Virus record (IMG/VR): IMGVR_UViG_3300021961_011268
Span: 1-64,000 of that record
Strand: one strand, 5' to 3'
DNA: 64,000 nucleotides
Source of the DNA: a virus
The notes under the pieces are model-generated. The model was not told the origin of the DNA, did no database searches, and saw only the letters and a list, made by a program, of their open reading frames with translations. Of this stretch, positions 9,046-35,331 are shown piece by piece. The stretch's first letter is position 1. The number at the start of each line of letters is the position of its first letter. Made by a program: the position numbers and the translations under genes.

Positions 9046-9053
9046 TAAAAATT

Positions 9054-9083
9054 AAAAAAAGTGCATACGATGTGCATTTTTTT
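9054..9083 (+). terminator. A-tract/T-tract hairpin of the repeated intergenic cassette
   Basis: A7, then TGCAT pairing with ATGTGCA through one bulged base, then T7. Equivalent hairpins stand at 19513, 27348 and 36035; those at 19513 and 36035 have perfect ATGCAC/GTGCAT stems. The symmetric A and T tracts make it potentially bidirectional. Confidence 0.65.
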
Positions 9084-9084
9084 G

Positions 9085-9113
9085 TTTACAACATCTAAAT
9101 AATATAATATAAT
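9085..9113 (+). promoter_or_regulatory. Sigma-70-like promoter, TTTACA-17-TATAAT
   Basis: TTTACA 9085-9090 starts within the T-tract edge of the hairpin; TATAAT at 9108-9113. The downstream leader TCAAAACAACAAAAGGACA (9121-9139) carrying the SD is shared with the 19591 and 27414 leaders. Confidence 0.85.
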
Positions 9114-9146
9114 GAATCTATCAAAACAACAAAAGGACACTATATT

Positions 9147-9536
9147 ATGAATACCGAATTAAAAAACATTAGAGAGCAAATTGAACAAGAACGTCTGGAT
9201 CGTATTGCTGAAGCCAAAAAGATAAAATCATATATTAATTATCATGGTTATTCAGACGTAACGCCATACGAAGTGGTTGAAGTTATTTCTGATCAAACAG
9301 TTGTTGTCCGTGAAATGGATGCTGAACTTGATCCAAACTGGAAAATGGATATTCGTGAAGGTGGATTTGTAGGTCACGTTGTAAATAACGGTGGCGAGTG
9401 GATAATCACTTCAAATCCTAAAAATCCAACTTATCGCGCTCGTTGGTCAAAAGCAAAAGGTCAATGGCAAATAAGAAATGGACAGCGTATGCGTATGGCT
9501 GATCAACCTCGCAAATTTTATGATTATAACTTCTAA
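9147..9536 (+). CDS. Hypothetical phage protein, 129 aa
   Basis: First gene of a transcription unit with a strong promoter and leader. The N-terminal 30 residues are a charged helix (REQIEQERLDRIAEAKK); the rest is beta-rich with SH3/KOW-like character (YEVVEVISDQTVVVREMD, EGGFVGHVVNNGGEW) and a basic C-terminal segment (RARWSKAKGQWQIRNGQR) likely to contact nucleic acid or ribosome. The family is known to me only as conserved phage protein. An early host-takeover role is inferred from promoter type. The stop overlaps the next ATG by one base. Confidence 0.6.
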   Translation: MNTELKNIREQIEQERLDRIAEAKKIKSYINYHGYSDVTPYEVVEVISDQTVVVREMDAELDPNWKMDIREGGFVGHVVNNGGEWIITSNPKNPTYRARWSKAKGQWQIRNGQRMRMADQPRKFYDYNF

Positions 9537-9964
9537 TGGGTAATATGCATCTCGTCAAGGGTCTTTATAATATAGACTCGCGTAAACCAAAAAATGGCAA
9601 AGTTCCGCAAGATCGTCTTGCGGCGCTTCGCATTGAGTGGAAAAAATATAATAAACTAATGAAGCAATCACGATTGCATTCAAAGGTAATTAAAAAGTTT
9701 GATGATTTTGTTTTATATACTCAAGGTAAATATAGGCCAGAAGAAGCAAAACGTAAACGTCAAATAATTACAGAAAGGTTTGATCAAACAAAGCATATTG
9801 CCAAATCGCATGGTGATCAAATCGGTGGTATGGGTGCAGCAAAAGAAAAGAATATGTATACCGGCGATCTCATTGTAGGTATTGCTACTATGCACAAATC
9901 AAATCTTGTTCCAGTGATGCGTGGAACAAAGCAAGCTGAAGAGTTTGCAAAAATGCGTCGATAA
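9536..9964 (+). CDS. Conserved phage hypothetical, basic, 142 aa
   Basis: A lysine/arginine-rich, mostly helical protein (LRIEWKKYNKLMKQSRLHSK, YRPEEAKRKRQIITERF) ending in a conserved-looking module LIVGIATMHKSNLVPVMRG and a basic tail. ATG at 9536 shares its A with the stop of the upstream gene. Likely DNA or RNA binding by composition. I recall relatives in marine T4-like phages but no function. Confidence 0.55.
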   Translation: MGNMHLVKGLYNIDSRKPKNGKVPQDRLAALRIEWKKYNKLMKQSRLHSKVIKKFDDFVLYTQGKYRPEEAKRKRQIITERFDQTKHIAKSHGDQIGGMGAAKEKNMYTGDLIVGIATMHKSNLVPVMRGTKQAEEFAKMRR

Positions 9965-13491: not shown

Positions 13492-14268
13492 ATGATAAGA
13501 CGACTAATAGCAGGTCCATGTCAGGCAGAAGACTATGATCTATCATATCAAATTGCAAAACACATGAAAGATATTTGTGACAAATATTCAATTGAATATT
13601 ATTTTAAAGCAAGTTTTGATAAGGCAAATCGTAGTCATATTGATGGTAAGCGTGGTCCTGGTCTTCACGAAACTCTTCATCAATTCAAGAAGCTGAAAAA
13701 AGATATACCAAATCTTAAGATATGTACAGACATTCATGAGTCTTGGCAAGCAAAAGAAGTTTGTGGATTTGTTGATATTATTCAGATACCAGCATTCCTT
13801 TGCCGTCAAACAGATTTAATTCAAGCAGCTTGTGACATTGGTGTTATTGTAAATATTAAAAAAGGACAATTCCTTTCACCAACCGATGTTCCAAATATTT
13901 TATCAAAGACTCGTGGCGAAGTCTGGATTACAGAACGTGGTACATGTTTTGGATATAATAATTTAGTAGTAGATTTTAATGGTATGCAATGGATGCTTAA
14001 GAATGTGAAAGCACCGCTTGTCTTTGATGTAACCCATTCAACACAAAAACCTGGTGGTAATGGTCAATCATCAGGTGGTAATCGAGAATATACACCAGGT
14101 TTATTCAAAGCAGCTCATGCAATCGGTGTTGAAAACTTTTTCCTTGAAGTACACCCAGATCCAGACAATGCACCAAGTGATGGACAAAATATGATGTATT
14201 TAAAAGATGTAGAACCATTATTAAATAACTTACAAGGTCAACTTCCTTGGCCTATGTGGATTGATTGA
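13492..14268 (+). CDS. kdsA: KDO-8-phosphate synthase, metal-dependent type
   Basis: Condenses arabinose 5-phosphate with PEP to KDO-8-phosphate, the first committed step to the inner-core LPS sugar KDO. Conserved segments include IAGPCQAE, YYFKASFDKANRS, TDIHESWQA, QIPAFLCRQTDL, KKGQFLSPTDV, FDVTHSTQ and EVHPDPDNAPSDG. Cys10 in AGPC stands where metal-dependent enzymes (Aquifex type) have their metal-binding Cys; the E. coli metal-free enzyme has Asn. Full length at 258 aa. First gene of a long chain of overlapping glycan genes. No phosphatase (kdsC) or isomerase (kdsD) is seen beside it, so these must come from the host. Confidence 0.93.
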   Translation: MIRRLIAGPCQAEDYDLSYQIAKHMKDICDKYSIEYYFKASFDKANRSHIDGKRGPGLHETLHQFKKLKKDIPNLKICTDIHESWQAKEVCGFVDIIQIPAFLCRQTDLIQAACDIGVIVNIKKGQFLSPTDVPNILSKTRGEVWITERGTCFGYNNLVVDFNGMQWMLKNVKAPLVFDVTHSTQKPGGNGQSSGGNREYTPGLFKAAHAIGVENFFLEVHPDPDNAPSDGQNMMYLKDVEPLLNNLQGQLPWPMWID

Positions 14269-15023
14269 TGAAAGACCGTATTAATTCTCTTTTTGCTATT
14301 TGTATTCCAGCTCGTTATGGATCAACACGATTTCCAGGTAAACCACTAGAAGATCTTGGTAATGGTAAAAATTTGATTCAGCACGTATATGATATTTGTG
14401 CCTCGACTGGTATCGATACTTATGTCTTGACTGATTCAATTGATATTATTAAATCTCTTGGTTCTAAACGTCGTACTATGATGACTATTAATAAACACGA
14501 AAATGGTACAAGTCGTTGTGCTGAATTTATGTATCGCCATCGTTATAATTCATATCGATATATTATTAATGTTCAAGGTGATATGGTTGATATAAGGCCT
14601 GATATGATTCAACAAATCGTTAATTATATTAGTAATCTTTACCTATTAAATGTTAGTGGTCAAATACCAGATGTTCTTAGCCTTTATACTGAAATGAAAC
14701 AAGAAGACCGTGAGAATCCTCACGTTGTTAAATGTATACATAACAATAATATATTAGCAAAAGCAATATGGTTCTTGAGAGCTCCGCTAGAGTATGGCAG
14801 TCAACATTTAGGAATCTACGGCTATACAAAGGATGCTCTATTAAACTATAATGAGCTTGATCGTACTGAGCACGAACAGATCGAATCGTTAGAGCAATTA
14901 AGATGGTGTGTTAATGATATAGATTTTAGGTTATTAAAAACAGATTATGATGGCCAAGAAATCAATACGCCTGAAGACTTAGAAAAATGGAAAGACATAA
15001 ATATTAAAGGTTATAATAAATGA
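14268..15023 (+). CDS. kdsB: CMP-KDO synthetase (3-deoxy-manno-octulosonate cytidylyltransferase)
   Basis: Activates KDO with CTP. The nucleotide-binding loop IPARYGSTRFPGKPL, the metal site region INVQGDMVDI, HLGIYGYTKDALL and the C-terminal ESLEQLRWCVN match KdsB; length 251 aa is typical. Start is ATG at 14268, sharing its A with the kdsA stop codon. Overlaps the cupin gene by 4 bases. With KdsA it lets the phage supply an activated KDO-like sugar for one of the glycosyltransferases downstream. A related ketosugar acid is possible. Confidence 0.9.
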   Translation: MKDRINSLFAICIPARYGSTRFPGKPLEDLGNGKNLIQHVYDICASTGIDTYVLTDSIDIIKSLGSKRRTMMTINKHENGTSRCAEFMYRHRYNSYRYIINVQGDMVDIRPDMIQQIVNYISNLYLLNVSGQIPDVLSLYTEMKQEDRENPHVVKCIHNNNILAKAIWFLRAPLEYGSQHLGIYGYTKDALLNYNELDRTEHEQIESLEQLRWCVNDIDFRLLKTDYDGQEINTPEDLEKWKDINIKGYNK

Positions 15024-15662: not shown

Positions 15663-16473
15663 TAATCGTAAAGATATTCAAAAGATATGGAATGATTCAA
15701 AGCATAATATAATCAAAGCAAAGGGAACCATTGGTCTCGGCGATTGTATGTCTGCTTTGAATATAGCTCATTTTCGTTCTTTTATATTTGAAAAAAAGAT
15801 CACTCTTGAGAATCATTGGTATCATGATGAAGATTATCAATATCACTTTGAAGATCCAGAAACAATTATCGAAAAATTTGATTATTTTGCAAAATATTAT
15901 CAACCAGCAGATGTTGAAATAAAGCACATATTCAATTCAACAAATGAAGGTCTTTATAAACAACGTTATCAACACCATCGTGGTATTATTAAAAATAATG
16001 ATTATCGTGCATGGTCATTTAATGCGTCAATTGTAAATACTCCAATTGTAAAAAATAAAATTGTGATGTGGAGACAAACATTTAATGCTGATATACCAAA
16101 GAATTATAAAAGAATATTTGATAATGATGGTTGGAATTATATTGTTCAATCTTTACAAAAACAAGGATATAGTGTAGCTCAAATTGATTATCGAACTTCA
16201 ATTAGAGAAGTGATGTACCATATATCAACTTGTGAAGCTACAATTGGATATGAAGGAATGTTTCATTATGTTGCTAAAAATTTTTGGAAGCCAATGATTA
16301 TTTTTACACGAGATAATATTAGTAAATTACATACACCACACGCACTTCTTTTTTGTCGTTCAATTAAAAGACCATTTGATATGACATGTCTTGATAATTT
16401 TCCACCAATACTTGATATTGCTAAAAGTATGATAAATACAGCATATAAGAATATGATATTGGAAACAAAATGA
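15589..16473 (+). CDS. Putative GT-B glycosyltransferase (heptosyltransferase-like)
   Basis: N-terminal loop KAKGTIGLGDCMSALNIAHF resembles the GxGD start of GT9 enzymes, and the C-terminal CEATIGYEGMFHYVAKNFW then KPMIIF resembles the GT9 acceptor/donor site where a Gly-rich loop precedes a His. The start is uncertain: GTG at 15589 gives a 74-base overlap with the previous gene, but no in-frame ATG exists before 15748, which would cut the conserved loop; TTG 15631 is an alternative. It ends 4 bases into the radical SAM gene. Likely transfers a sugar onto a surface or core glycan. Confidence 0.6.
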   Translation: MVQLFKHKLIRLRNSLTIGNRKYYDNRKDIQKIWNDSKHNIIKAKGTIGLGDCMSALNIAHFRSFIFEKKITLENHWYHDEDYQYHFEDPETIIEKFDYFAKYYQPADVEIKHIFNSTNEGLYKQRYQHHRGIIKNNDYRAWSFNASIVNTPIVKNKIVMWRQTFNADIPKNYKRIFDNDGWNYIVQSLQKQGYSVAQIDYRTSIREVMYHISTCEATIGYEGMFHYVAKNFWKPMIIFTRDNISKLHTPHALLFCRSIKRPFDMTCLDNFPPILDIAKSMINTAYKNMILETK

Positions 16474-17459
16474 AAATAGATAGAGCAGTAATTGAAATAG
16501 CCGGTGGATGTAATTATAGTTGTGATATGTGTCCACAATCAAATCCAGGTCGTGATTCACGCTTCTTGAGAAATATGGGACTCGAAGAATTTGAAAAGAA
16601 TGTGGCTGATTGTGCTCAACATGGATTAAGAGTCGTCAATCTTGATGGTTCTGGTGAAGCAACACTTCTTCATAACTTACCAGATTATATTCGAATTGTA
16701 AAGAAATATGGAGCAAAAGCATTTATCTTTTCAAATGGTTTACGTATGCGTGGAAAATTCATGCAAGAATGTGTTGATGCTGGTCTTGACTTCTATCGAT
16801 TCTCTGTGATTGGTTCAACACCAAAAGAATATAGTAAATGGATGAATCGTAGTGAACGTACTTATGATATTATATGGAATAATATAAAAGAAATGCAAAG
16901 ATATATTCATCTTTCAGATTCGCAATGTATTGTTTCAACGTATCATCTTATTTGTAATAATAATGATCCAGAAGAACTCAATCGATATAAAGCAAAGCAT
17001 GCAGAAATCAATCGGATTGTTCCAGGAATTAAAACAGAAATATGGAAAATGCATAATTGGAGTGGTGTATATGATAATGAACAAAAAAGAAGTGGTACTA
17101 TCAAGACGTGCGGAAGACCTTTTAGCCCAGACGTCGTTATCAGAGCAGGAGGCCTTGATGGAAAAACTGGAGCAGTTGCACCTTGTTGCCAAGTCCTTGG
17201 ACAAGACGAAAAAGCAGTCTTAGGTCATACATCTGAAAATACAATTGAAGAAATATGGAATGGTCTAGAATACACTCAATTAAGAGAAGACCATATTAAT
17301 GGAGAATATCCAGATTATTGTAAAGGATGTGACTTTTTGATCGATGATCCTGAAGTTCTTGTTTATACTAATTTTGATAGATCTCAATATCATATGCATG
17401 GTACAGAATTTAATTTAAATGATTATCGTGATGTTAGACAATATTTACCACCGCTTTAA
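16470..17459 (+). CDS. Radical SAM enzyme with SPASM-type C-terminal cluster
   Basis: The [4Fe-4S] SAM motif is CNYSCDMC (Cys14, Cys18, Cys21), followed by GSGEATLLHNL (SAM glycine motif), IFSNGLRM and YRFSVIGST strands of the partial TIM barrel. The C-terminal 110 residues carry further cysteines (TCGRPF, APCCQVLG, YCKGCDF) as in SPASM/Twitch domains that hold auxiliary clusters. SPASM enzymes modify peptides or sugars by radical chemistry. It is embedded between glycosyltransferases with a 4-base overlap upstream, so sugar modification such as epimerisation or dehydration is the likely role. Substrate unknown. Confidence 0.85.
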   Translation: MKIDRAVIEIAGGCNYSCDMCPQSNPGRDSRFLRNMGLEEFEKNVADCAQHGLRVVNLDGSGEATLLHNLPDYIRIVKKYGAKAFIFSNGLRMRGKFMQECVDAGLDFYRFSVIGSTPKEYSKWMNRSERTYDIIWNNIKEMQRYIHLSDSQCIVSTYHLICNNNDPEELNRYKAKHAEINRIVPGIKTEIWKMHNWSGVYDNEQKRSGTIKTCGRPFSPDVVIRAGGLDGKTGAVAPCCQVLGQDEKAVLGHTSENTIEEIWNGLEYTQLREDHINGEYPDYCKGCDFLIDDPEVLVYTNFDRSQYHMHGTEFNLNDYRDVRQYLPPL

Positions 17460-20964: not shown

Positions 20965-21423
20965 ATGATTAAATATATTAGTCATCGTGGTAATTTAACT
21001 GGGCCTGAACCAGAAAAAGAAAATAGAATTTCTACAGTTGAAAACGTTTTACATCTAGGATTTGATTGTGAGATTGATGTTCGATTTATTGATAATAAAT
21101 TTTATCTAGGTCATGATGAAGCACAAGAAGAAGTATCAATTAAATGGTTAAATCAAAGAGGTCTATGGATCCATTGTAAAAATATTGAAGCTTTGATTGA
21201 ACTTCAGCAATATAAATATATTAATAGTTTTTGGCATCAAGAAGATCAATATACACTTACAAGTAATGGATATATATGGGTTTATCCAACTGAATATATA
21301 CCTATGAATAGCGGTAATCGTATTATTGCAAATTGTGCAAATGTAATGGTTAATGATGGTCGATATGCAGGTTACTGTTCTGATTATATACAACATTTAA
21401 AGGAAGAATTTAGTGCATTATAG
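20965..21423 (+). CDS. Glycerophosphodiester phosphodiesterase-like protein, short form
   Basis: The GDPD catalytic signature is present: SHRGN (His7, Arg8), KENRIS, CEIDVR (Glu36, Asp38) and LGHD (His50). At 152 aa it is far shorter than typical GDPD barrels (about 240 aa), so the second half of the barrel is reduced, yet the metal and acid/base residues remain. It overlaps the RuBisCO-like gene by 11 bases, indicating coupled production. It may cleave a phosphodiester or serve as a sugar-phosphate lyase/isomerase in the same pathway; this is inference. Confidence 0.7.
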   Translation: MIKYISHRGNLTGPEPEKENRISTVENVLHLGFDCEIDVRFIDNKFYLGHDEAQEEVSIKWLNQRGLWIHCKNIEALIELQQYKYINSFWHQEDQYTLTSNGYIWVYPTEYIPMNSGNRIIANCANVMVNDGRYAGYCSDYIQHLKEEFSAL

Positions 21424-22477
21424 AGTAACGTACGAAATTGAAAGTGATGATATACCTTTAGCAGCTCATAATATTGCTATTGGTCAAAGTATTGGTAATC
21501 CAAATGTTCGTTCAGAAATTGAGATGGCTGACAACATTAAAGAAATGGAAGCAATCGTCGAAAAGATTGAAGGTAATAAAGTAATAATTGCCTTTCCTTT
21601 GAAAGCGTGGGATTGGCCAAACATATCGCAACTTTTATGTACGATACAAGGTGGTCAGTCAGATATTGAACTTGTTCATCGATGTCGAGTGATTGATATT
21701 GAAGGTTTAGATTATATGAATCAACCAGTTCTTGGTATGAAGGCAATGAAAGAAAGATGCGATGCAACAGATCGTCCTCTCTTTGGTAGTATTGTAAAGC
21801 CAAAATCAGGTCTCACTGAATTACAACTTATCAAAATTGTTGAACAAATGGTTGATGGTGGTACGGATTTCATTAAAGAAGATGAGATCATGGCAAACAA
21901 TTCTTATTTACCTCTTCAAAAACGTGTTGATATTATTAGTGAAATGTTAGATAAGAAAAACTCAAATGTTGTTTATTCTTATTGCGTGAATGCTGATCCA
22001 CTTGAATTGATTGAAAATCTTGATATTGTCAAGCAAGGCGGTGGTGATTGCGTTCATATTAACTTCTGGTCTGGACTTGGTGCATATACAACAAGCAATC
22101 AAAAAGGACTTATTACTCACTATCAAAGGTCGGGCATTCGTATTCTAACCGACCCGGATAATCGATTTAGTGTTTCTTGGCCAGTTGTAGTCAAACTTGG
22201 TATTATGGCAGGTATCGATACGATGCACATTGGAATGCTTGGTGGTTATTATCCAGAAGGAGAATCAGAAGAAGAAACACTTGAGGCATTATCACTTTGT
22301 CAAAAGTATGATCGTGTTGCAGCCCTCTCATGTGGTATGAATCCAGATTTTGCACGAGAAATACGTGGTAATATTGGAAATAATTGGATGGCTAATATAG
22401 GTGGATGGCTACATACAGGTGATAGTATATATCAAAAAGTTTATGAAATGAGAAAAAGTCTAGAGGAAACAATATGA
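21413..22477 (+). CDS. RuBisCO-like protein (form IV-type, large-subunit fold)
   Basis: A complete RuBisCO large-subunit fold can be followed: N-terminal VTYEIESDDIPLAAHNIAIG, SIVKPKSGLT (Lys129, Lys131), TDFIKEDEIM with Lys155, Asp157 and Glu158 equal to the carbamylated Lys201, Asp203 and Glu204 of RuBisCO, then HINFWSGLGAY, MHIGMLGGYYPEG, ALSCGMNP and NIGGWLH phosphate loop. The loop-6 Lys334 and His294 positions appear replaced (Tyr279; TDPDNR region), so CO2 fixation is unlikely while metal-dependent enolisation stays possible. 354 aa, shorter than usual (400 or more). Start is GTG at 21413 with AGGAAG upstream; it overlaps the GDPD-like gene and, by 4 bases, the nucleotidyltransferase gene. 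Likely acts on a phosphorylated sugar or sugar acid for glycan synthesis. Confidence 0.9.
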   Translation: MHYRVTYEIESDDIPLAAHNIAIGQSIGNPNVRSEIEMADNIKEMEAIVEKIEGNKVIIAFPLKAWDWPNISQLLCTIQGGQSDIELVHRCRVIDIEGLDYMNQPVLGMKAMKERCDATDRPLFGSIVKPKSGLTELQLIKIVEQMVDGGTDFIKEDEIMANNSYLPLQKRVDIISEMLDKKNSNVVYSYCVNADPLELIENLDIVKQGGGDCVHINFWSGLGAYTTSNQKGLITHYQRSGIRILTDPDNRFSVSWPVVVKLGIMAGIDTMHIGMLGGYYPEGESEEETLEALSLCQKYDRVAALSCGMNPDFAREIRGNIGNNWMANIGGWLHTGDSIYQKVYEMRKSLEETI

Positions 22478-23181
22478 AAATAATTTTGCCAATGGCGGGA
22501 AATGGTAGTCGATTTTTTGATGCCGGATATTCTCTACCAAAACCTTTGATTGATGTCAAAGGAAAACCGATGTTTTCTCGTGTTCTTGATAATTTAAATA
22601 TTACAAAGGATGATGATATTCATTTCATTGTTCGTATGGAACATGTACTTAATTATCAAATACAAAATCAGATTCATGACTATTATCCAGATGCTCATAT
22701 CCATGCATTAAGTGAAATGAATGAAGGGGCTTGTCAAACTGTTTTGACAGCAATCGATCAATATAGTGAATTAGATTTTATGGTAGCAAATTGTGACCAA
22801 ATTATGATATGGGAAAGGCCTGATTTTAATTTTAAAATTGGTGGTACTATCATGACGTTTACACCCGATCATGATAAACCAATACATTCATACGTAAAAT
22901 GCAATGATAAAGGGCATGTGATTGAACTTGCTGAAAAACGTATGATTAGTAATATTGCAACAACTGGTGTTTACCATTTTGGATCTCAAAAAGATTTCTA
23001 TATTGCAGCACATCAAATGATGGAAGCAAATGATCGTACAAATGGTGAATTCTATCTTGCTCCTGTATATAATTATTTAAATAAACCAATTGAAATATAT
23101 CATTGCGAAAAATTCATTGGAATGGGTACACCTCAAGAATTAGAAGAATTGAAACAAACTGATTATTATAAGAACTTATGA
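22474..23181 (+). CDS. Sugar nucleotidyltransferase
   Basis: N-terminal PMAGNGSRFFDAGYSLPKPL is the NTP-binding loop of the nucleotidyl transferase family, followed by DFMVANCDQIM (metal Asp) and TTGVYHFGSQKDF, FIGMGTPQELEE. It activates a sugar or polyol phosphate with CTP, UTP or dTTP. Starts 4 bases inside the RuBisCO-like gene, so the product of that enzyme (or of the GDPD-like protein) is a candidate substrate. 235 aa, typical. Nucleotide specificity cannot be read. Confidence 0.85.
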   Translation: MKIILPMAGNGSRFFDAGYSLPKPLIDVKGKPMFSRVLDNLNITKDDDIHFIVRMEHVLNYQIQNQIHDYYPDAHIHALSEMNEGACQTVLTAIDQYSELDFMVANCDQIMIWERPDFNFKIGGTIMTFTPDHDKPIHSYVKCNDKGHVIELAEKRMISNIATTGVYHFGSQKDFYIAAHQMMEANDRTNGEFYLAPVYNYLNKPIEIYHCEKFIGMGTPQELEELKQTDYYKNL

Positions 23182-23912
23182 AACTTGCTATTTGTGTAAC
23201 TGGACAATATAGACCAACTGTAAGAAATCCATCAGACGCAAAATTTAATTTAGATCGCTTTCAACAGATCTTTTATGATGCTGATGTATATTATCACACA
23301 TACGATAAAAATGTAGATTCATTACCAAATTGGATAAATCGCAATCAAGTTTATTCATGGCCTGAACCAGAAAATCATTACCATCCAGTAAATGATACGC
23401 CTTTTTTGTGTCCACATAAAAAATTTCATGATTATCGAAAAAGAAATATTTTAACACATAAGACTGCTCATGCCCATAAGCAAATACTTTCTTATGCAAA
23501 TTTAATTGAACAAATGACATTACCTCAATATCATAGTTATGATATATTGATTCGTATACGTTGGGATACCGCAATCAATATGACTCGTCAAGATATTGAA
23601 AAGTATTTTGAATATGTAATGAATGAAGGTCCTGTTGGATTTATGACAAGGGCAAATCGTGGACCAAAATATGAAAATGGAAATACCGTTATATTGCCAA
23701 AAGATAGTACCGCTATAGATGATGATTGGTATTGTTATTTACCTGATACAATGATACTTCATAGTCCAAAACATTTTGATCCAAAATATGTTCAAGAACT
23801 TTTTTCAAAACGACAATTATGGCCAGCAGAATGGGGATGGTGGCAAACAATGTCAGAACCTTATAATAATAATCATTTATCTGTCCATGGTGGTGTTATT
23901 ATTGCAAGATAA
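23178..23912 (+). CDS. Putative glycan-synthesis protein (xGQYR family), 244 aa
   Basis: Begins LAICVTGQYRPTVRNPSD, a pattern seen in capsule-synthesis proteins of GT-A type that start ISGQxR, with IRIRWDTAINMTRQDIEKYF in the middle as acidic donor site, and a C-terminal HSPKHFDPKYVQELF region. It overlaps the nucleotidyltransferase by 4 bases and ends the second glycan operon block. Assignment as glycosyltransferase is plausible but not proven. Confidence 0.5.
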   Translation: MKLAICVTGQYRPTVRNPSDAKFNLDRFQQIFYDADVYYHTYDKNVDSLPNWINRNQVYSWPEPENHYHPVNDTPFLCPHKKFHDYRKRNILTHKTAHAHKQILSYANLIEQMTLPQYHSYDILIRIRWDTAINMTRQDIEKYFEYVMNEGPVGFMTRANRGPKYENGNTVILPKDSTAIDDDWYCYLPDTMILHSPKHFDPKYVQELFSKRQLWPAEWGWWQTMSEPYNNNHLSVHGGVIIAR

Positions 23913-24024: not shown

Positions 24025-24639
24025 ATGAGTGAGTTAAGAAAATCATTTGATAGAGCTGGATCTGATAAAGGCTGGAAACATGGTTATGAAAGGGCTTATG
24101 AAGAAACCTTTGAACCAATTCGAAATGAACCATTGAATATACTTGAAATTGGTATTTTACATGGTGAATCACTTGCTGCTTGGGTTGACTACTTTCCGAA
24201 TGCACAAATTTATGGCATTGATACATTCGAAAGAGTTGCACCAAAAGATATTAATATATTGAATCATGAACGTGTACATTGGTTAAAAGGTATGAGCCAA
24301 ACAATTAATACAAAAGAATTAATAAAAAAAACTTGGCCTGATGTTCAATTTGATATTATTATTGATGATGGCCTACATACGCCAATTGCGAATGGTGCCA
24401 CATTTGAAAATCTGATTGAATTTTTAAAAGATGACGGATATTATTTTATTGAAGACATATATCCACTTGATATTCTTACTGAAAAAGAATGGCAAAATCG
24501 TTGGATCACAACACACCAAAAAGATTTTACGATGATAAATTGGGTAAGATTTACAAATGCATTATTTGGATATAAAGAAAAACATTATGATCTTCGAGAT
24601 CGATATGCTGATTCTTATATTATAAGGATATCGAAATAA
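24025..24639 (+). CDS. Class I SAM methyltransferase (macrocin-type/MycE-like)
   Basis: Characteristic LNILEIGILHGESLAAWVDY then NAQIYGIDTFERV (motifs I and II) and FDIIIDDGLHTPIANGATF, the metal-binding DDG-H pattern of sugar O-methyltransferases such as MycE and TylF. 204 aa. SD GAGG at 24011-24014, fitting the ATG at 24025. It is the first gene of a run of glycosyltransferases and very likely methylates a sugar hydroxyl. Confidence 0.8.
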   Translation: MSELRKSFDRAGSDKGWKHGYERAYEETFEPIRNEPLNILEIGILHGESLAAWVDYFPNAQIYGIDTFERVAPKDINILNHERVHWLKGMSQTINTKELIKKTWPDVQFDIIIDDGLHTPIANGATFENLIEFLKDDGYYFIEDIYPLDILTEKEWQNRWITTHQKDFTMINWVRFTNALFGYKEKHYDLRDRYADSYIIRISK

Positions 24640-25373
24640 TGAAAGCTTTTATTATTACAATGAAGGATAATTCTGAATCTGTTGCACTGTCCAATCGTTG
24701 TGTTGAATCAATAAAAAATTCGAATACACTACTTGATGTTTATATATCAAATGGAGTTGTACCAGAAACACTTTCAGAAACACTTCATTCGTATTTTCGA
24801 AATTCATCTATACCAAATATATATTATACATATCCAAAAACTCCTGATGAAAATCGTCATGATATTAAATCAGGTTTAAAACTTTCAGCCTATCAAACAG
24901 TTGATTTGGATAAAAGAGTTTCTTGCCTAATGTCTCATTATGTATTATGGCATTATGCAATTAAAAATAATGAGACAATTATGATACTTGAACATGATGC
25001 GTGTTTTTATCCAAAGAAATTCAATGTTAATATAAAATTTTCTGGTTCTATTCTTGGTCTTAATGATCCAAGAGGAGCAACAAGAAAAGCAAATGTATAT
25101 CATGAGAAGCTTGCAATTGGCAATCCAGAATCAAAACCAATTCCAAGAGAGATCCCTTGGATTGATGATCATATGGTACCTCAAGGTCTTGCTGGAAATT
25201 CAGCTTATATTATTAAACCAAAAGGTGCTCAAATATTATGTGAATTAATTGCTGAACATGGATTATGGCCGAATGATAGTATCATGTGTAAACAATTAAT
25301 GCCAGGTGAATTGCAAACAGTTTATCCATATGTCACATATGTAAAACAAACTAAGTCATTTACATCATCTTAA
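24639..25373 (+). CDS. GT25-like glycosyltransferase
   Basis: AFIITMKDNSESVALSNRCVES start, KLSAYQTVDLDKRVSCLMSHY then VLWHYAIKN and IMILEHDACFYP match family 25 (SHxxLW, acidic EHD site), with GNSAYIIKPKGAQIL near the C-terminus. A related protein follows at 25383 and another is at 18090, so the phage has three members for different linkages. Overlaps the methyltransferase stop by one base. Confidence 0.75.
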   Translation: MKAFIITMKDNSESVALSNRCVESIKNSNTLLDVYISNGVVPETLSETLHSYFRNSSIPNIYYTYPKTPDENRHDIKSGLKLSAYQTVDLDKRVSCLMSHYVLWHYAIKNNETIMILEHDACFYPKKFNVNIKFSGSILGLNDPRGATRKANVYHEKLAIGNPESKPIPREIPWIDDHMVPQGLAGNSAYIIKPKGAQILCELIAEHGLWPNDSIMCKQLMPGELQTVYPYVTYVKQTKSFTSS

Positions 25374-25382
25374 GGAAATATT

Positions 25383-26081
25383 ATGAAAGCATATGTTATT
25401 ACAATTGAGAATCATAAAGGTTCAAATGATTGCGCAGATCGATTAATTAAATCTGGTAATGCAGATCGTTTTGGTAGTGGTCTATGGATTCATAAATTTA
25501 AGGCAACAACACCTACTAATATCCATCAGATATTTGAAAATGAAGGTTTAAATCCTTCTGCTTTTCAGGATAAATATTCAATTCAAGAGAATGCAATGGC
25601 TTGTTTTTATTCTCATTATTCCTTATGGAAAAAGACGGTTGAAGAAGATGAGCCTCATATGATCTTTGAGCATGATGCAGTTATTGTGGGTGATATTCCA
25701 AATATATTCACACTACCTGATAAAGGATGTATATCATTTGGTAAACCTTCATATGGCAAATATAATATTCCAACACAAATTGGTATTAATCCATTACAGA
25801 GTAAGCAATACTTTCCAGGCGCGCATGCGTATCTAGTCAGACCTCATTGTGCAAAACAATTAATTCAAAAGGCTAAGACACACGCAGCTCCAACAGATCT
25901 TTTTTTAACAAATGCTAATTTCAATTTCCTTGAAGAATATTATCCATGGCCTGTTGAAGTAAAAGATACCTTTACAACAATACAACAAGAAAATGGATGT
26001 ATTGCAAAACATAATTATAATAAGAATTATCGTATTGATACAAATTGGGATAATCCTAATGCGGGACAAGATTTTAAATGA
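25383..26081 (+). CDS. GT25-like glycosyltransferase, second copy
   Basis: AYVITIENHKGSNDCADRL, KYSIQENAMACFYSHYSLW and PHMIFEHDAVIVGD carry the same family pattern as its upstream neighbour, followed by FPGAHAYLVRPHCAKQLI. Divergent enough from the 24639 product to have another acceptor, but probably from an old duplication. Own SD AAGGAA at about 25372. Overlaps the next gene by 4 bases. Confidence 0.75.
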   Translation: MKAYVITIENHKGSNDCADRLIKSGNADRFGSGLWIHKFKATTPTNIHQIFENEGLNPSAFQDKYSIQENAMACFYSHYSLWKKTVEEDEPHMIFEHDAVIVGDIPNIFTLPDKGCISFGKPSYGKYNIPTQIGINPLQSKQYFPGAHAYLVRPHCAKQLIQKAKTHAAPTDLFLTNANFNFLEEYYPWPVEVKDTFTTIQQENGCIAKHNYNKNYRIDTNWDNPNAGQDFK

Positions 26082-29724: not shown

Positions 29725-30012
29725 ATGGAAGAAAGTTTTAATATTATTAATTTGATTAGTGAATATGGTTTTCCTGTTGTTGCAATGGTTGGTCTTGGAT
29801 ATTTTATTTATTTTATATGGAATTTTGTTAATAAAAATGTTGATCCTGAAATGCATAAAATGCATCTTGCTCTTATTCGAGTAATTGATCAAACAAGAAT
29901 GCTCGATCAAGATATGATAAGATTGCAGCAAAAAGTCAATGTTGTATTAGAATATAGAGAAATATATGGAAGAGCACATCAAAAAACTAAAAAGAAAAAA
30001 GAGGATGAATAA
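29725..30012 (+). CDS. Holin-like membrane protein with coiled coil, copy 2
   Basis: Directly adjoins the previous stop codon. One membrane segment (YGFPVVAMVGLGYFIYFIW), then a coiled-coil-like helix (LIRVIDQTRMLDQDMIRLQQ) and a highly charged Lys/Glu end (KTKKKKEDE). Paralog of the 29431 product. It overlaps the CsgF gene start by 8 bases, tying it to the secretion genes. Whether the two form hetero-oligomers is unknown. Confidence 0.6.
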   Translation: MEESFNIINLISEYGFPVVAMVGLGYFIYFIWNFVNKNVDPEMHKMHLALIRVIDQTRMLDQDMIRLQQKVNVVLEYREIYGRAHQKTKKKKEDE

Positions 30013-30508
30013 ACTTATCGATAAATTTATCATATTAATTATGGTATCTTTTTGGATTTTTATTATTTGCATTTCAATAGCAAATTCAACTGAGTTGAAT
30101 CATAAATTTAAATCACCATCATTTAATGGTATTAATACGAGTGCTCATTATTTGACAATTGAGAATCAAATGAAATCTCGTAAAGATAAGATTCAATCAG
30201 ATATTGAAGCTGAATTGTTGGCAAAACAAAGAGAAGAAGAAAATACTTTATTGTCAAAATTTATTCGTAATTTTGAATCAAGAGTATATTCACAGTTAAG
30301 TAAACAATTAGTTGATCAATTATTTGATGGAACTGGATCCTCATTTGGATCATTTGTTCTTGAAGGAAGTACAATTACATATCAAATACAACCTTGTGAT
30401 GATATGATAAGATGCAATATTGGCGATGAAGTAATTGTTATGGATATTGTTGATGAAGCCGGCTCGAGCACTAATATAACAATACCGATAGGTGCTGGAA
30501 CTTTTTAA
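30005..30508 (+). CDS. csgF: CsgF-like curli assembly protein
   Basis: Start ATG 30005 gives a signal peptide (LIDKFIILIMVSFWIFIICI, cut near ANS). The mature start TELNHKFKSPSFNGIN matches the CsgF N-terminal sequence that in E. coli inserts into the CsgG pore (pattern YxFxNPSFGGNP). The C-terminal half is beta-rich (GSTITYQIQPCDDMIRCNIG with two cysteines). In bacteria CsgF links CsgG to the growing curli fibre. Here it precedes csgG by 9 bases, whereas bacterial order varies. 167 aa versus 138 in E. coli. Confidence 0.8.
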   Translation: MNKLIDKFIILIMVSFWIFIICISIANSTELNHKFKSPSFNGINTSAHYLTIENQMKSRKDKIQSDIEAELLAKQREEENTLLSKFIRNFESRVYSQLSKQLVDQLFDGTGSSFGSFVLEGSTITYQIQPCDDMIRCNIGDEVIVMDIVDEAGSSTNITIPIGAGTF

Positions 30509-30517
30509 GGTAGTAAA

Positions 30518-31333
30518 ATGCGTATATTCTTAAAAATTGTATTGTATACAATTATATTATCAATTATTTCAGGATGCGCATTGAATAACTTTAAATATGA
30601 TAAGATGCGACAAGATATGCCTATTGAGGAAATATTACCTACGCATGATGCGTTAAAGTCAATAAATCCTCCTGATAGAATGCCAGTTGTCGCGGTATAT
30701 CAATTTGATGATAAAACGGGTCAAAGAAAACAGGTTGATTCGTCTGCTTTATTTAGCACAGCAGTTTCACAAGGAGCTGAAACAATGTTGATTGATGCAT
30801 TGAAAACTGCTGGAAATGGACAATGGTTTCGAGTTGTTGAAAGAATAGGAATAGATCATTTAGTAAGAGAAAGACAAATAGTAAGAAGCACAAGACAAGC
30901 TTATAATGATAATGAAGAATTGGCACCAATGCTTTTTGCGGGTATGATACTTGAAGGTGGTATTATTGGATATGATACAAATATAGAAACAGGTGGAGCA
31001 GGAGCAAGGTATTTAGGAATAGGTGGACAAACACAATATCGTAAGGATTTTATTACTGTTTCTTTAAGAGGAATAAGCACACTAACTGGAGAAGTATTAT
31101 TAAATGTCCAAACGTCAAAAACAGTATTATCGGTGTCAAATGGATTTGATGTTTTTAAATTTGTTGATTTAGATACAAAACTAATAGAAGTAGAAAACGG
31201 CATGACGGAAAATGAAAGTATAACTCGATCGACAAGATCATGCATTGAAGCAGCTGTTTTAGCACTTATTAAACAAGGTGATTCTCGTAACCTTTGGAAA
31301 ATACGAGATAAAAAGGATAAAAGTAATGAATAA
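30518..31333 (+). CDS. csgG: CsgG-like curli secretion channel lipoprotein
   Basis: Outer-membrane nonameric export pore. Lipobox ISGC with Cys20; body matches CsgG: PVVAVYQFDDKTGQRKQ, LFSTAVSQGAETMLIDALK, WFRVVERIGIDHLVRERQI, EGGIIGYDTNIETGGAGARY, GIGGQTQYRKDFITVSLRG, GEVLLNVQTSKTVLS and the C-terminal LWKIRDK. 271 aa versus 277 in E. coli. In the constriction loop Phe56 is kept (ALFSTAV), whereas the Tyr51 and Asn55 positions appear to be changed to Asp and Leu, so gating may differ. CsgE, the usual adaptor, is not encoded nearby. The next gene starts 8 bases before the stop. Confidence 0.95.
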   Translation: MRIFLKIVLYTIILSIISGCALNNFKYDKMRQDMPIEEILPTHDALKSINPPDRMPVVAVYQFDDKTGQRKQVDSSALFSTAVSQGAETMLIDALKTAGNGQWFRVVERIGIDHLVRERQIVRSTRQAYNDNEELAPMLFAGMILEGGIIGYDTNIETGGAGARYLGIGGQTQYRKDFITVSLRGISTLTGEVLLNVQTSKTVLSVSNGFDVFKFVDLDTKLIEVENGMTENESITRSTRSCIEAAVLALIKQGDSRNLWKIRDKKDKSNE

Positions 31334-32090
31334 CATATTAGAACTAATAACGTTTATTATATGGTTTATTATCTCTATTGTTATTATGACATTTATTTTG
31401 GGATATGCAAGTGCGCATGCGCAAACTTCATCAGATAATGAGATATATTTAAATCAAAGTGGAGATACAATCACTTTAAATATAAATCAAATAGGATATG
31501 GAAATAAATTTGGTGGAAGTGTTTCATCAGGTGTTGTAGCAACAGATCTAACTTTGACTGGTTCATCACTTGATATTGATTTGACTCAAGATGGTAATAG
31601 TAACCAATTTCTAGGTAGTATTATTTTTGATAATAGTTTCCTTGATTTTACGACTACTGGTGATACCAATATTCTTACATTAGATATTGGAAGCACTGGA
31701 TCTGCAGATGATTCAAATCTTTTCTTGGATTTTACGGGAGATAATAATACACTTGATCTGAATATTGGAAGTGTAGCATCTGCCGAAAGATTAGATTTTG
31801 ATTTAAACGTAATTGGTGGATCAAATATCTTTGATGTTGATATTGAAGCTGATGATGTGACATGGCAAGTTGATATTACTGGTTCAGGAAATGATTTCCT
31901 TTCAAATATCAAGGATGGTGCATATAACTCATTGACTATTGATTTTACTGGGGATAATGGTGATATTGATATTAATCAATGGTCAGGTTCATGTCCACAA
32001 GGTGTAACATCTTGCTTTGGAGTAATTGATGCAACGATTAATTCAGATAATGCAATTATACAAATTAACCAAAAAGATACTGTCGAATAG
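31326..32090 (+). CDS. Curlin-repeat-like exported protein, 254 aa
   Basis: ATG 31326 overlaps the csgG stop. Signal sequence with a long hydrophobic stretch (IIWFIISIVIMTFILGY) cut near SAHAQ. The mature chain is Gly/Asn/Asp/Ser-rich beta sequence with curlin-type Gln-Gly-Asn spacing at the start (YLNQSGDTITLNINQIG, then NKF) and looser repeats afterwards (TQDGNSNQFLGS, TGDNNTLDLNIGS, TGSGNDFLSN). No aromatic-rich globular domain. A likely secretion substrate of the CsgG pore, analogous to CsgA/CsgB, but with fewer ideal repeats. Two Cys near the C-terminus (SCPQGVTSCFG). Confidence 0.7.
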   Translation: MNNILELITFIIWFIISIVIMTFILGYASAHAQTSSDNEIYLNQSGDTITLNINQIGYGNKFGGSVSSGVVATDLTLTGSSLDIDLTQDGNSNQFLGSIIFDNSFLDFTTTGDTNILTLDIGSTGSADDSNLFLDFTGDNNTLDLNIGSVASAERLDFDLNVIGGSNIFDVDIEADDVTWQVDITGSGNDFLSNIKDGAYNSLTIDFTGDNGDIDINQWSGSCPQGVTSCFGVIDATINSDNAIIQINQKDTVE

Positions 32091-33201
32091 TCTTATATAT
32101 TTTTTAATATTCTTTTCTCAAGGTTATGCCGCTGTTGAAAAGAATATTGGAAATATTATTGAAGTATCTGGAACAAATGGTATTACATCAATTGATGGTG
32201 TAACTAAGGTTGGCACTAAAGATTTAGATATCTATTTTCGTGATACTATTGAAACAGTTCAAGGTAAAATGAAAATTGATTTTGTTGATGAAACAAAATT
32301 GTCATTAACAGAGCATTCTAAAGTCCTTATTGATGAATACTATTTTGATCCAAATCCATCAAAATCAAAAATGACTATGAGTTTTATTCAAGGAACGGCA
32401 AGATTTGCAACTGGTAAATTAGGTCTTGTTCCAAAGGAGAATATTATTATTAATACACCAACAGCAGTTGTTGGCGTTCGTGGTACAGATTTCACAACAA
32501 CAGTAGATGAACTTGGTCGATCATTAATTATTCTATTGCCAGATGAGGAATGTACAATTGATGGTGATTGCAATCCATCAGGAGAAATTACTGTTACAAA
32601 TGCAGGAGGCGTTGTCACATTGACTGAAGCATATTCAGCAACAATGGTTACATCCTTTGATAATGCTCCAATGCAACCAGTAATACTTGAAAATATTACC
32701 ATTAACATTATTGATAATATGTTTATTGTGACACCACCAAACGAAATAGAACAATCAATAGAGGAAGAAGAATCTAATAATCGGCCATCATATGATTTAC
32801 TCGACTTTAATGATTTGGATATAAATTTATTAAGTGAAGATTGGGATGAAGAAGATCTTTCGATAAATGAAGTGGATATTAATTATCTTGATGGTGATTT
32901 TTTACAAAATATTCTTGATGATTTGCTATTACAACAAGATTATTTAAAAGAATCAAGTCAATCAACAAGTTATGATATACAAGGCACAAATATTGGTTTT
33001 GATTCACAAACAAACTATTATACCTTTATTGACATTGGTGAGGGTACAATTCGATTTTATCGAATCGTTGGTGGTATAATAAATATAGTAACAAAAATAG
33101 ATAGTAACATAACATTGGATACTGAAAATGATGGTAAAAAGAACTTTATTACTAATGGTGATGGTCAATCTGTTGTTCTTACAATCCGCCAAGGCAATTG
33201 A
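32029..33201 (+). CDS. Exported FecR-domain protein
   Basis: N-terminal hydrophobic segment (SNSLIYFLIFFSQGYA) as signal peptide, then GNIIEVSGTNGITSIDG and a FecR barrel with the diagnostic NTPTAVVGVRGTDFTT motif; the C-terminal 150 residues are very acidic (EEEESNN, DLLDFNDLDINLL). FecR domains in the periplasm pass signals or scaffold surface assemblies. Start at ATG 32029 is uncertain, as it overlaps the previous gene by 62 bases; TTG 32026 is just upstream. It overlaps the next curlin-like gene by 74 bases. In bacteria FecR domain proteins are often next to CHASE2 cyclases, as here. Confidence 0.8.
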   Translation: MQRLIQIMQLYKLTKKILSNSLIYFLIFFSQGYAAVEKNIGNIIEVSGTNGITSIDGVTKVGTKDLDIYFRDTIETVQGKMKIDFVDETKLSLTEHSKVLIDEYYFDPNPSKSKMTMSFIQGTARFATGKLGLVPKENIIINTPTAVVGVRGTDFTTTVDELGRSLIILLPDEECTIDGDCNPSGEITVTNAGGVVTLTEAYSATMVTSFDNAPMQPVILENITINIIDNMFIVTPPNEIEQSIEEEESNNRPSYDLLDFNDLDINLLSEDWDEEDLSINEVDINYLDGDFLQNILDDLLLQQDYLKESSQSTSYDIQGTNIGFDSQTNYYTFIDIGEGTIRFYRIVGGIINIVTKIDSNITLDTENDGKKNFITNGDGQSVVLTIRQGN

Positions 33202-33484
33202 TCAAGATCAGAATAGTGTTTTTATTAATCAAATAGGTGATGATCTTAATTTGAATCTTAATCAAACTGGATATAATAATAATATTGAGATTGACACAGA
33301 TACGAATAGTAATAACATTTCAGTAGATCAAACAGGTTCTGGCCATGATGTAATATTAAATTTATATGGAACACAACCAAATAATGTTTCTGTTTCACAA
33401 TCAAGTACCACACCTCAAAGTTATTCAATTGAAACATATTGTATTACTATCGGAGGCTGCTCTATTTCAGTAGATCAACAATGA
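33128..33484 (+). CDS. Short curlin-repeat-like exported protein, 118 aa
   Basis: Starts with ATG ATG at 33128/33131 inside the FecR gene. Signal peptide RTLLLMVMVNLLFLQSAKA, then VFINQIGDDLNLNLNQTGYN, NNISVDQTGSGHDVILNL and NNVSVSQSS, which are good curlin-type repeats (N-Q-x-G-x4-5-N). It is shorter than the 31326 product and ends with a C-x7-C pair (CITIGGCSISVDQQ). By analogy with CsgB it could be a nucleator. It overlaps the cyclase start by 4 bases. Confidence 0.7.
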   Translation: MMVKRTLLLMVMVNLLFLQSAKAIDQDQNSVFINQIGDDLNLNLNQTGYNNNIEIDTDTNSNNISVDQTGSGHDVILNLYGTQPNNVSVSQSSTTPQSYSIETYCITIGGCSISVDQQ

Positions 33485-35331
33485 AATATATCACATCAAT
33501 ATTCTCTTGCATTGCAGTCCTTATACTAGGATTATTTTTAAAAGTCACAGATCCATATATTATTGAAAGACTTCGTTTAATTAATTTTGACCAATATCAA
33601 CAATTAATACCACAACATAATAATAAAGATATAACACTTATTAATATTGGTGAGGAATCATTAAATCAATATGGTCAATGGCCTTGGCCTCGTTCTATTT
33701 TTGCTCAAGTCATTTCTGATTTAAGATCAGCAAATGCTGGAATTATTGTATTTAATATTATGTTTCCTGAGAGCGATAGATTTGGACAAGATGAAATTTT
33801 AAAATCATGGATAGATGGTAATGGTATTATTCTATCACAAACTGGTTCGCCAAAAGGAAGATCAGATTCAGCACCGTTTGTTGGCACTGTTGTTCTTGGA
33901 AGTGGTGATCCATATCAGTTTGTAGATGAATATCCAGGTATTGTTACAAATATAGAAGAATTTGAATCTTCTGCTTGGGGTGTTGGTGTATTAAACTCAA
34001 AACAAGAAATTGATAATGTAACAAGAAGAATGCCATTATTGATTCAATCAAATAATCAATTATATCCATCATTAAGTATGGAAATACTGAGAGCAACGGT
34101 TGAAGAAAAGTCATATACAATAAAAGTAGAACCAACTGGTATTGAAAATTTTAGAATACCTCCATATGAACCAATACAAACTGACGCGTCTGGTTCAATA
34201 TGGATTAATTGGTCAAATAAATTTAAATCATACGAATATGGTAAAGACACTCTGCCAGATCTAAATGGTAATACGGTGATTGTTGGTCTTACTGCAGAAG
34301 GTCTTGTTCCATTAGTACCTACACCTCGTGGAGCTCTTTATCCACACGAGTTACAAGCTTCAGTATTAGCGGATCTAATGGACTCAAGCACATCAATTAC
34401 TCGACCAAATTGGATGCCTATTGCTGAGATTTTATTAATTACAATTACAAGTATACTACTTCTTCTTTCTGTATATTATTTACCAATAGTATATTCGCTT
34501 GTATGTTCATTGTTTTTATTATCAATAAACATGTTAATACCGACATATCTATGGATGGAATCATTTTATTTGATGGATATGTCATTTGGTATAATCTTAA
34601 CAGTTATTCTTTTTGCACATTCAAGTTTTAATAATTTCTATAAGCAATTTAAATTACGACAACAAATTAAGAAACAATTTGAACACTATCTAGATCCAAG
34701 ACAGGTGAAGATACTACAGAAAAATCCTGGGTTATTGAAACTTGGTGGTGAACGAAAAGAAATGACTTATTTGTTTATGGATATTATTGGCTTTACACCA
34801 ATATCAGAATTCTATAAGAACAAGAATGACCCTGAAGGTTTAGTTGAATTAGTGAATGAATTCCTTGATGAGATGACAAACATTATATTGAAGAATGGTG
34901 GCATGATCGATAAGTTCATGGGAGACTGTATCATGGCAATATTCAATGCACCGATCGATATGCCTAATCATGCTGAGATGGCTATTAAGTCTTGTATCGA
35001 AATCGAAGACAAAGTCAAAGAACTGAAAGCCAAATATAAAGAACGTGGTTTACCTGATATCAATGTCGGAACAGGAGTCAATACCGGTACGGCAATCATC
35101 GGTAATATGGGATCAACAACAAGATTCGACTTTAGTGTGATAGGCGATGCGGTGAACTTGGCAGCAAGACTTGAAGCAACTGCTGGACGTGGCGATTACA
35201 AGAAATATCCTACAATATATTCTTCTATGACAAAAGAACAATTGCCTGATTCAATCAAGAGTAAACATATCGGTGATATCAAAGTGAAGGGAAAAGAAGA
35301 CGTAATTGAAATATATACTATTTCTTCTTAA
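33481..35331 (+). CDS. CHASE2-domain class III adenylate/guanylate cyclase
   Basis: Start ATG 33481 (ATGA overlap). Residues 1-21 are a membrane anchor; about 30-310 form a periplasmic CHASE2 sensor (QWPWPRSIFAQVISDL, FNIMFPESDRFG); about 313-380 hold three membrane helices; from 420 is the cyclase: GGERKEMTYLFMDIIGFT (Asp434), KFMGDCIMAIF (Asp482), FDFSVIGDAVNLAARLE (Asn559, Arg563). The Lys426/Asp550 pair fits ATP rather than GTP. All catalytic metal and transition-state residues are present, so it should make cAMP. The catalytic part is less AT-rich than the sensor part. Ends 14 bases into the convergent minus-strand gene. Confidence 0.93.
   Translation: MKYITSIFSCIAVLILGLFLKVTDPYIIERLRLINFDQYQQLIPQHNNKDITLINIGEESLNQYGQWPWPRSIFAQVISDLRSANAGIIVFNIMFPESDRFGQDEILKSWIDGNGIILSQTGSPKGRSDSAPFVGTVVLGSGDPYQFVDEYPGIVTNIEEFESSAWGVGVLNSKQEIDNVTRRMPLLIQSNNQLYPSLSMEILRATVEEKSYTIKVEPTGIENFRIPPYEPIQTDASGSIWINWSNKFKSYEYGKDTLPDLNGNTVIVGLTAEGLVPLVPTPRGALYPHELQASVLADLMDSSTSITRPNWMPIAEILLITITSILLLLSVYYLPIVYSLVCSLFLLSINMLIPTYLWMESFYLMDMSFGIILTVILFAHSSFNNFYKQFKLRQQIKKQFEHYLDPRQVKILQKNPGLLKLGGERKEMTYLFMDIIGFTPISEFYKNKNDPEGLVELVNEFLDEMTNIILKNGGMIDKFMGDCIMAIFNAPIDMPNHAEMAIKSCIEIEDKVKELKAKYKERGLPDINVGTGVNTGTAIIGNMGSTTRFDFSVIGDAVNLAARLEATAGRGDYKKYPTIYSSMTKEQLPDSIKSKHIGDIKVKGKEDVIEIYTISS

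Follow-up and report, generated by a model that had tools for sequence, protein, structure and literature searches.

What does a RuBisCO-like protein (RLP) do in a phage, among genes for glycan synthesis? The question is raised by a gene at 21413-22477 on the plus strand of the 64,000-nucleotide stretch of DNA analysed here (hereafter the window), which covers most of an IMG/VR record of 66,084 bases with a GC content of 32%. The record also encodes a ribonucleotide reductase, a gp32-like ssDNA-binding protein and T4-type baseplate genes, and the nearest isolates by baseplate protein are phage C48C1 (41.6%) and Pelagibacter phage HTVC008M (38.5%). The T4-type genes, the HTVC008M-like baseplate and the low GC content together indicate a T4-like myophage which, judged by its genes, is related to the pelagiphage HTVC008M; it is probably marine, perhaps with a SAR11-like host. 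Elsewhere in the window, curli-type secretion genes at 29966-33201 encode CsgF (PF10614, E = 1e-11) and CsgG (PF03783, E = 3e-50), followed by a curlin-like repeat protein that matches no Pfam family and a FecR-domain protein. A 630-residue protein combining CHASE2 and adenylate/guanylate cyclase domains is encoded at 33439-35331 (phrog_35576, of unknown function, E = 2e-196), and a sulfotransferase-family gene lies between tail genes at 43247-43801 on the minus strand (PF03567, E = 5e-8).

The RLP gene is a single open frame of 354 codons with a GTG start, and its 354-residue product is a confirmed member of the RuBisCO large-chain superfamily, with the whole fold present. The protein matches PF00016 (RuBisCO_large) with an E-value of 4.9e-26, scoring 92.1 bits where the cut-off is 30.1. 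In the PDB, 98 distinct sequences match it at E ≤ 1e-3, and all 60 of the PDB matches listed are RuBisCOs or RLPs, headed by the RLP 3nwr and then archaeal RuBisCOs; a profile built from 29 aligned relatives (A1) reaches 9e-45 against the PDB. The AlphaFold model (pLDDT 91.1, pTM 0.90) contains an N-terminal domain, at approximately residues 1-100, and a (beta/alpha)8 barrel at 123-351 with all eight strands, from beta1 (123-128) to beta8 (326-329), so the full large-subunit fold that the initial annotation had read from the sequence is borne out by Pfam, PDB and model alike. The chain ends directly after helix 8, as a compact version of the fold. Structural alignments with form I, II and III RuBisCOs and with RLPs are all alike, with Z-scores of 37.6-39.9 and rmsd values of 2.0-2.8 over 336-351 residues, the top match having a Z-score of 39.9 over 350 residues. 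Among the viral structures of BFVD, where absence is uninformative, only general barrels are found (best query TM-score approximately 0.44).

The window RLP belongs to a family encoded by at least 165 IMG/VR stretches, and among these are relatives that share 70-79% identity with it along the whole length. The best 80 IMG/VR relatives split into a short clade of window-like proteins (approximately 58-79% identity) and a long clade (approximately 38-43%), most members of which are some 40 residues longer than the window RLP. Neither the window RLP nor a long-clade relative has a match among INPHARED phages. In one scan of GTDB-level genomes we identified 23 cellular loci, in SAR11/Pelagibacteraceae, Azospirillum oleiclasticum, Legionella nautarum, L. 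drozanskii, L. maceachernii, Elusimicrobia, Verrucomicrobia, Patescibacteria, DPANN archaea and Crocinitomicaceae; in a Legionella genus set, 4 of the 22 species carry a member of the family. One cellular locus, from a Sphingobacteriales metagenome-assembled genome, resembles a phage contig.

Aligned over 46 family members (29 from viruses, 17 from cells), the active site is both strictly conserved and strictly altered (spinach numbering, with window residues in brackets). K175 (K129), K177 (K131), K201 (K155), D203 (D157), E204 (E158), S379 (S306), G381 (G308) and G403 (G330) are invariant in all 46, and G404 (G331) is kept in 44. Six other positions are replaced in every member, each by one residue: H294 by Q (Q238), K334 by Y (Y279), N123 by G (G81), T65 by N (N29), E60 by G (G24) and G380 by C (C307). 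The carbamate lysine, the two metal acids and both KPK lysines are thus retained and the loop-6 lysine and His294 lost, just as first proposed from the window sequence, and the metal triad is intact across the alignment. Neither of the two outcomes named there as refuting the proposal, a model without the N-terminal domain and barrel or a lost triad, was observed. The phosphate-site residues are partly kept, R295 being R, K or S and H327 being H or Q. The difference between phosphate site P1, where G381, G403 and G404 are kept, and phosphate site P2, where R295 and H327 vary and S379 is kept, hints at a monophosphate substrate, too weakly to rest on. In established RuBisCO enzymology, the loop-6 lysine K334, H294, N123 and E60 are required for carboxylation; none of the 46 members has the residues of a carboxylating RuBisCO of forms I-III at these positions, which speaks against carboxylation, and the phage protein almost certainly cannot fix CO2. 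The coding sequences are under purifying selection, with a median dN/dS of 0.07 (range 0.02-0.23) in 101 pairs of RLP relatives. An invariant triad, invariant replacements and this low ratio argue for a refitted, working enzyme, as opposed to a decaying one.

In a maximum-likelihood tree, the same 29 viral and 17 cellular members form one clade with support of 100/100, separate from forms I, II and III, from MtnW and from OiaX and the other non-photo RLPs; the tree was built without IV-Photo, IV-DeepYkr and IV-GOS references and without the R. rubrum RLP. With the A1 profile, family members score 315-582 bits and the other RuBisCOs and RLPs tested score at most 154, and the window RLP stays far below the cut-offs for MtnW (TIGR03332, 41.5 against 513.6 bits), OiaX (NF042437, 91.5 against 700) and form III (TIGR03326, 101.6 against 497). 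It had been assigned to form IV at the outset. That assignment holds in the broad sense of a RuBisCO fold with substituted catalytic residues, as read from the altered site, but not in the narrow one, given that the protein falls in no form IV group of the tree. With midpoint rooting, cellular sequences form the deepest branches of the family, and viral and cellular members are mixed in the tree, switching from one to the other three or more times.

In the window, the RLP gene is the second of four frames on the plus strand that overlap end to start. The frame upstream (20965-21423, 152 residues) overlaps it by 11 bases. Its product has no Pfam match, and judged by a predicted structure with a pLDDT of 90 it has the fold of a glycerophosphodiester phosphodiesterase-like (GDPD) protein: the top Foldseek matches are the GDPDs 3qvq and 1o1z, with a probability of 0.97-1.00 and a TM-score of 0.5-0.6 by query length, although with E-values of only 0.006-0.02. 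Residues H7-R8-G9, E19-N20, E36-x-D38, H50-D51 (in a G-H-D motif) and K72 of this mini-GDPD are invariant in 15 sequences, and we take the HRG, EN, ExD, GHD and K elements to be the GDPD catalytic motifs. Downstream, overlapping the RLP stop by 4 bases, is a sugar-phosphate nucleotidyltransferase of a single domain (22474-23181, 235 residues; PF00483, E = 1.9e-7), hereafter NTP-transferase, which also matches the HddC model over residues 2-227 with an E-value of 2.3e-6, far below the HddC cut-off. Both overlaps had been noted in the initial annotation. The fourth frame (23178-23912) belongs to a neighbour cluster whose members follow the NTP-transferase gene directly in most short-clade loci; it has no Pfam match, and its product is probably a glycosyltransferase, a role taken from context.

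Further plus-strand genes extend this glycan block. Two frames of another neighbour cluster lie at 24639-25373 and 25383-26081, the latter encoding a glycosyltransferase of family 25 (PF01755, E = 2.2e-13). Upstream, a KdsA-like enzyme of the DAHP-synthetase-I family (13492-14268; PF00793, E = 2.8e-51) and a KdsB-like cytidylyltransferase (14265-15023; PF02348, E = 4e-23) form a pair whose sequences make KDO synthesis and activation a probable function within the block of the RLP. A radical SAM/SPASM protein is encoded at 16470-17459 in the same block, and four short-clade loci share both it and its neighbour.

The association with sugar activation extends well beyond the window. When viral loci are dereplicated at 90% RLP identity, 34 of the 37 clusters have an NTP-transferase near the RLP, 22 have a cupin of approximately 107 residues, which the window cassette lacks, and 20 have a GDPD. 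The cupin is immediately upstream of the RLP in 30 of 40 long-clade loci, and the NTP-transferase is immediately downstream in 32 of 41 short-clade loci. Nearly every cellular locus also has an NTP-transferase near the RLP. The Azospirillum and Elusimicrobia loci contain GDPD, RLP, cupin and NTP-transferase, Crocinitomicaceae have NTP-transferase, cupin, RLP and GDPD, and in Patescibacteria a divergent NTP-transferase accompanies the GDPD, the cupin and the RLP. SAR11 loci carry GDPD and NTP-transferase beside the RLP, and Legionella loci keep only the RLP and NTP-transferase of the cassette. In three Legionella species the gene order is the same (L102, L103 and L101:7636-10865), with a divergently transcribed LicD-family gene (PF04991, E = 1e-42, checked in L101) adjoining the pair; its product is possibly a phosphosugar transferase that uses the cassette product. 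With these partners recurring in unrelated viruses and cells, the sugar-activation setting first proposed for the window RLP is upheld, and the literature search returned no characterised RLP in such a setting, as had been supposed.

Individual loci show further arrangements. Two different NTP-transferases flank the RLP, one on each side, in five SAR11 loci (L088, L089, L091, L092 and L095), and in L004 a frame adjoining the RLP (9049-9873) appears by eye to encode a glycerol-3-phosphate-cytidylyltransferase-like domain fused to a cupin. An apparent 706-residue fusion in the Azospirillum locus is a wrong-frame artefact of GC-rich DNA; tblastn resolves separate GDPD, RLP, cupin and NTP-transferase genes.

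Cassettes also occur without the RLP. When IMG/VR was scanned with the cupin as the starting point, 56 of the 80 loci obtained had an RLP; the other 24 lacked one, and all 24 still carry NTP-transferase, GDPD or both; a scan starting from the GDPD gave 80 loci, 7 of them with an RLP. In three RLP-less loci (L233-L235), a PMM-type HAD occupies the same slot, and in other variants the NTP-transferase is fused to a C-terminal HAD (360-374 residues) or an N-terminal HAD (approximately 450-480 residues), the latter order, HAD::NTP-transferase, being that of the S-CAM9 cassette. In another variant, an NTP-transferase::RpiB fusion (PF02502, E = 8e-36 for the RpiB part in L254) accompanies a HAD phosphatase and a PfkB-type kinase. 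Of 49 RLP-less records, 6 contain RpiB, and the frames, 387-393 codons long, have a size that fits the NTP-transferase fusion; any RpiB at all is present in only one of 49 RLP records, itself 306 kb long. In the cultured Synechococcus phage Bellamy the cassette takes the RpiB form, with four genes in a row: gp204 (HAD phosphatase), gp205 (PfkB-type protein, just under the Pfam cut-off), gp206 (NTP-transferase::RpiB, E = 3.9e-32) and gp207 (cupin, E = 3.8e-40 to the family profile). A single-domain NTP-transferase is present in 36 of the 42 dereplicated cupin cassettes that include an RLP and in 5 of the 18 that do not (Fisher P = 2e-5, a value that ignores shared ancestry).

The alternation of RpiB with RLP rests on few independent loci, and in most RLP-less cassettes anchored on the GDPD there is a HAD fusion but no isomerase to be seen, which means that the cassette does not require one. 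The PfkB-type kinase and HAD phosphatase of the RpiB cassettes further imply that the products of the RpiB and RLP pathways may differ. On the gene content of these loci, the constant member of the cassette is the enzyme of nucleotide activation, and the variable members are enzymes that shape the sugar phosphate.

From the fold, the active site and the cassettes we infer a catalytic role, a substrate, a product and an order of steps. With a probability of roughly 0.55, the RLP isomerises or epimerises a sugar phosphate before its activation with a nucleotide for glycan synthesis. The protein would act as an enolising enzyme dependent on Mg2+ and a carbamylated lysine. Carbamylated K155, together with D157 and E158, would position Mg2+ at the substrate's carbonyl and hydroxyl groups, abstraction of a proton would give an enediolate, and reprotonation on the other carbon or the other face would yield an isomer or epimer. 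The small cupin, where present, and a mutase or phosphatase may help to turn this product into the sugar phosphate accepted by the neighbouring NTP-transferase, which would convert it to an NDP-sugar, and glycosyltransferases would then place the sugar on the surface glycan of the infected cell or on the virion. RpiB is a sugar-phosphate isomerase that converts aldose phosphates to ketose phosphates and back by way of an enediol, and the first step of RuBisCO is the enolisation of a ketose phosphate. In R. rubrum, the Deep-Ykr RLP Rru_A1998 is an MTRu-1P isomerase, and its gene adjoins that of the cupin Rru_A2000 (PMC4958253). The enediol chemistry of RpiB, the enolisation step of RuBisCO and an RLP isomerase with a cupin neighbour are what favour isomerisation or epimerisation here. 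The broader proposal, that this branch is an anabolic isomerase or epimerase for nucleotide sugars, interchangeable with RpiB in a modular cassette of phages, SAR11, Legionella, Patescibacteria and archaea, is more tentative, and we hold it at a little under even odds.

The main rivals are a decarboxylation-type chemistry and a non-catalytic role. In the former, the RLP would serve the same cassette as a decarboxylase, as in OiaX, or as a retro-aldol enzyme or dehydratase, and would form an unusual short-chain or deoxy sugar phosphate. OiaX, the 3-oxo-isoapionate-4-phosphate decarboxylase, is likewise an RLP that uses a sugar-derived phosphate; it is a common annotated plasmid relative, its NCBIfam score against the window RLP is close to that of form III (91.5 and 101.6 bits), and the metal triad is equally suited to its chemistry. 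OiaX is, however, catabolic and falls with its relatives in a separate supported clade; in this group K177 is replaced by A, as in OiaX, or by S but H294 and K334 are kept, the reverse of the family, and the cassettes showed no gene of the apionate pathway. We therefore regard this chemistry as unlikely, though deserving of attention. Considerably less probable is an RLP of methionine salvage, either an MtnW enolase or an MTRu-1P isomerase, that lies among glycan genes by chance. MtnW, the DK-MTP-1P enolase of Bacillus, shares with the family the RuBisCO fold, the Mg/carbamate triad, a glycine at E60 and, as predicted for the family, a lack of carboxylation, NCBIfam gives weak matches to it, and Rru_A1998, which itself isomerises a sugar phosphate, has a cupin partner as the family does (PMC4958253). 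Yet MtnW belongs to a different clade and keeps H294, with K177 replaced by V and K334 by S, the surroundings of the family showed no other gene of methionine salvage, and whereas the partners of Rru_A1998 serve the recycling of MTA to DXP, this family is paired with NTP-transferase and GDPD in different phyla.

A catalytically dead or regulatory RLP, kept for a complex with the NTP-transferase, could account for the loss of the catalytic residues H294, K334 and N123 and for the 4-base overlap of the two genes in the window. It fits poorly with a triad and KPK lysines that are unchanged in viruses, bacteria and archaea, and with strong purifying selection. Moreover, the replacements Q238, Y279, C307 and N29 are themselves invariant, which suggests a refitted site and not decay, and we consider a non-catalytic role quite improbable. 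For a CO2-fixing RuBisCO serving phage carbon metabolism, only the fold and the metal triad speak; with K334, H294, N123 and E60 replaced throughout, and no small subunit or phosphoribulokinase noticed in the neighbourhoods inspected, its likelihood is close to negligible.

For the preferred reading, an isomerase or epimerase ahead of nucleotide activation, the nearest parallel in pathway logic is the synthesis of GDP- and ADP-heptose, in which an isomerase, a kinase, a phosphatase and a nucleotidyltransferase act (GmhA, HddA/HldE, GmhB and HddC). The likeness extends to the HddC match of the window NTP-transferase and to one RLP-less cassette that holds a PfkB-type, HldE-like kinase and a cytidylyltransferase. 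We know of no RuBisCO-fold enzyme in the heptose pathways.

The sequence branch itself is perhaps not new. The 2007 GOS ocean survey describes marine RuBisCO homologues outside all known forms (PMC1821046), and IV-GOS is a named subgroup of ocean RLPs (PMC10173188); our family may overlap with either. The sections of these two papers that concern the IV-GOS and unclustered GOS homologues assign them no function, viral origin or cassette. In the literature searched, which excluded subscription papers, no work turned up on this cassette or on a phage RLP placed in this way, and none described the viral origin, the uniformity of the active site, the sharing of the cassette across phyla or the alternation with RpiB.

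The functions of the RuBisCO superfamily known to us are CO2 fixation, the recycling of nucleotides or methylthioadenosine and the breakdown of sugar acids. If the proposed role is correct, a large viral and cellular branch in nucleotide-sugar synthesis would add a biosynthetic role to the superfamily and point to an unknown activated sugar in the glycans of marine phages and SAR11, and part of the ocean RuBisCO homologues orphaned since 2007 could be explained. The RpiB alternative occurs in the cultured phage Bellamy, which makes the question directly testable. For such genes in viruses and metagenomes, 'RuBisCO, carbon fixation' would be the wrong annotation. The position of the RLP beside activated-sugar genes in many viruses and some bacteria and archaea indicates that here the RuBisCO fold has probably been turned to the making of surface-coat sugars.
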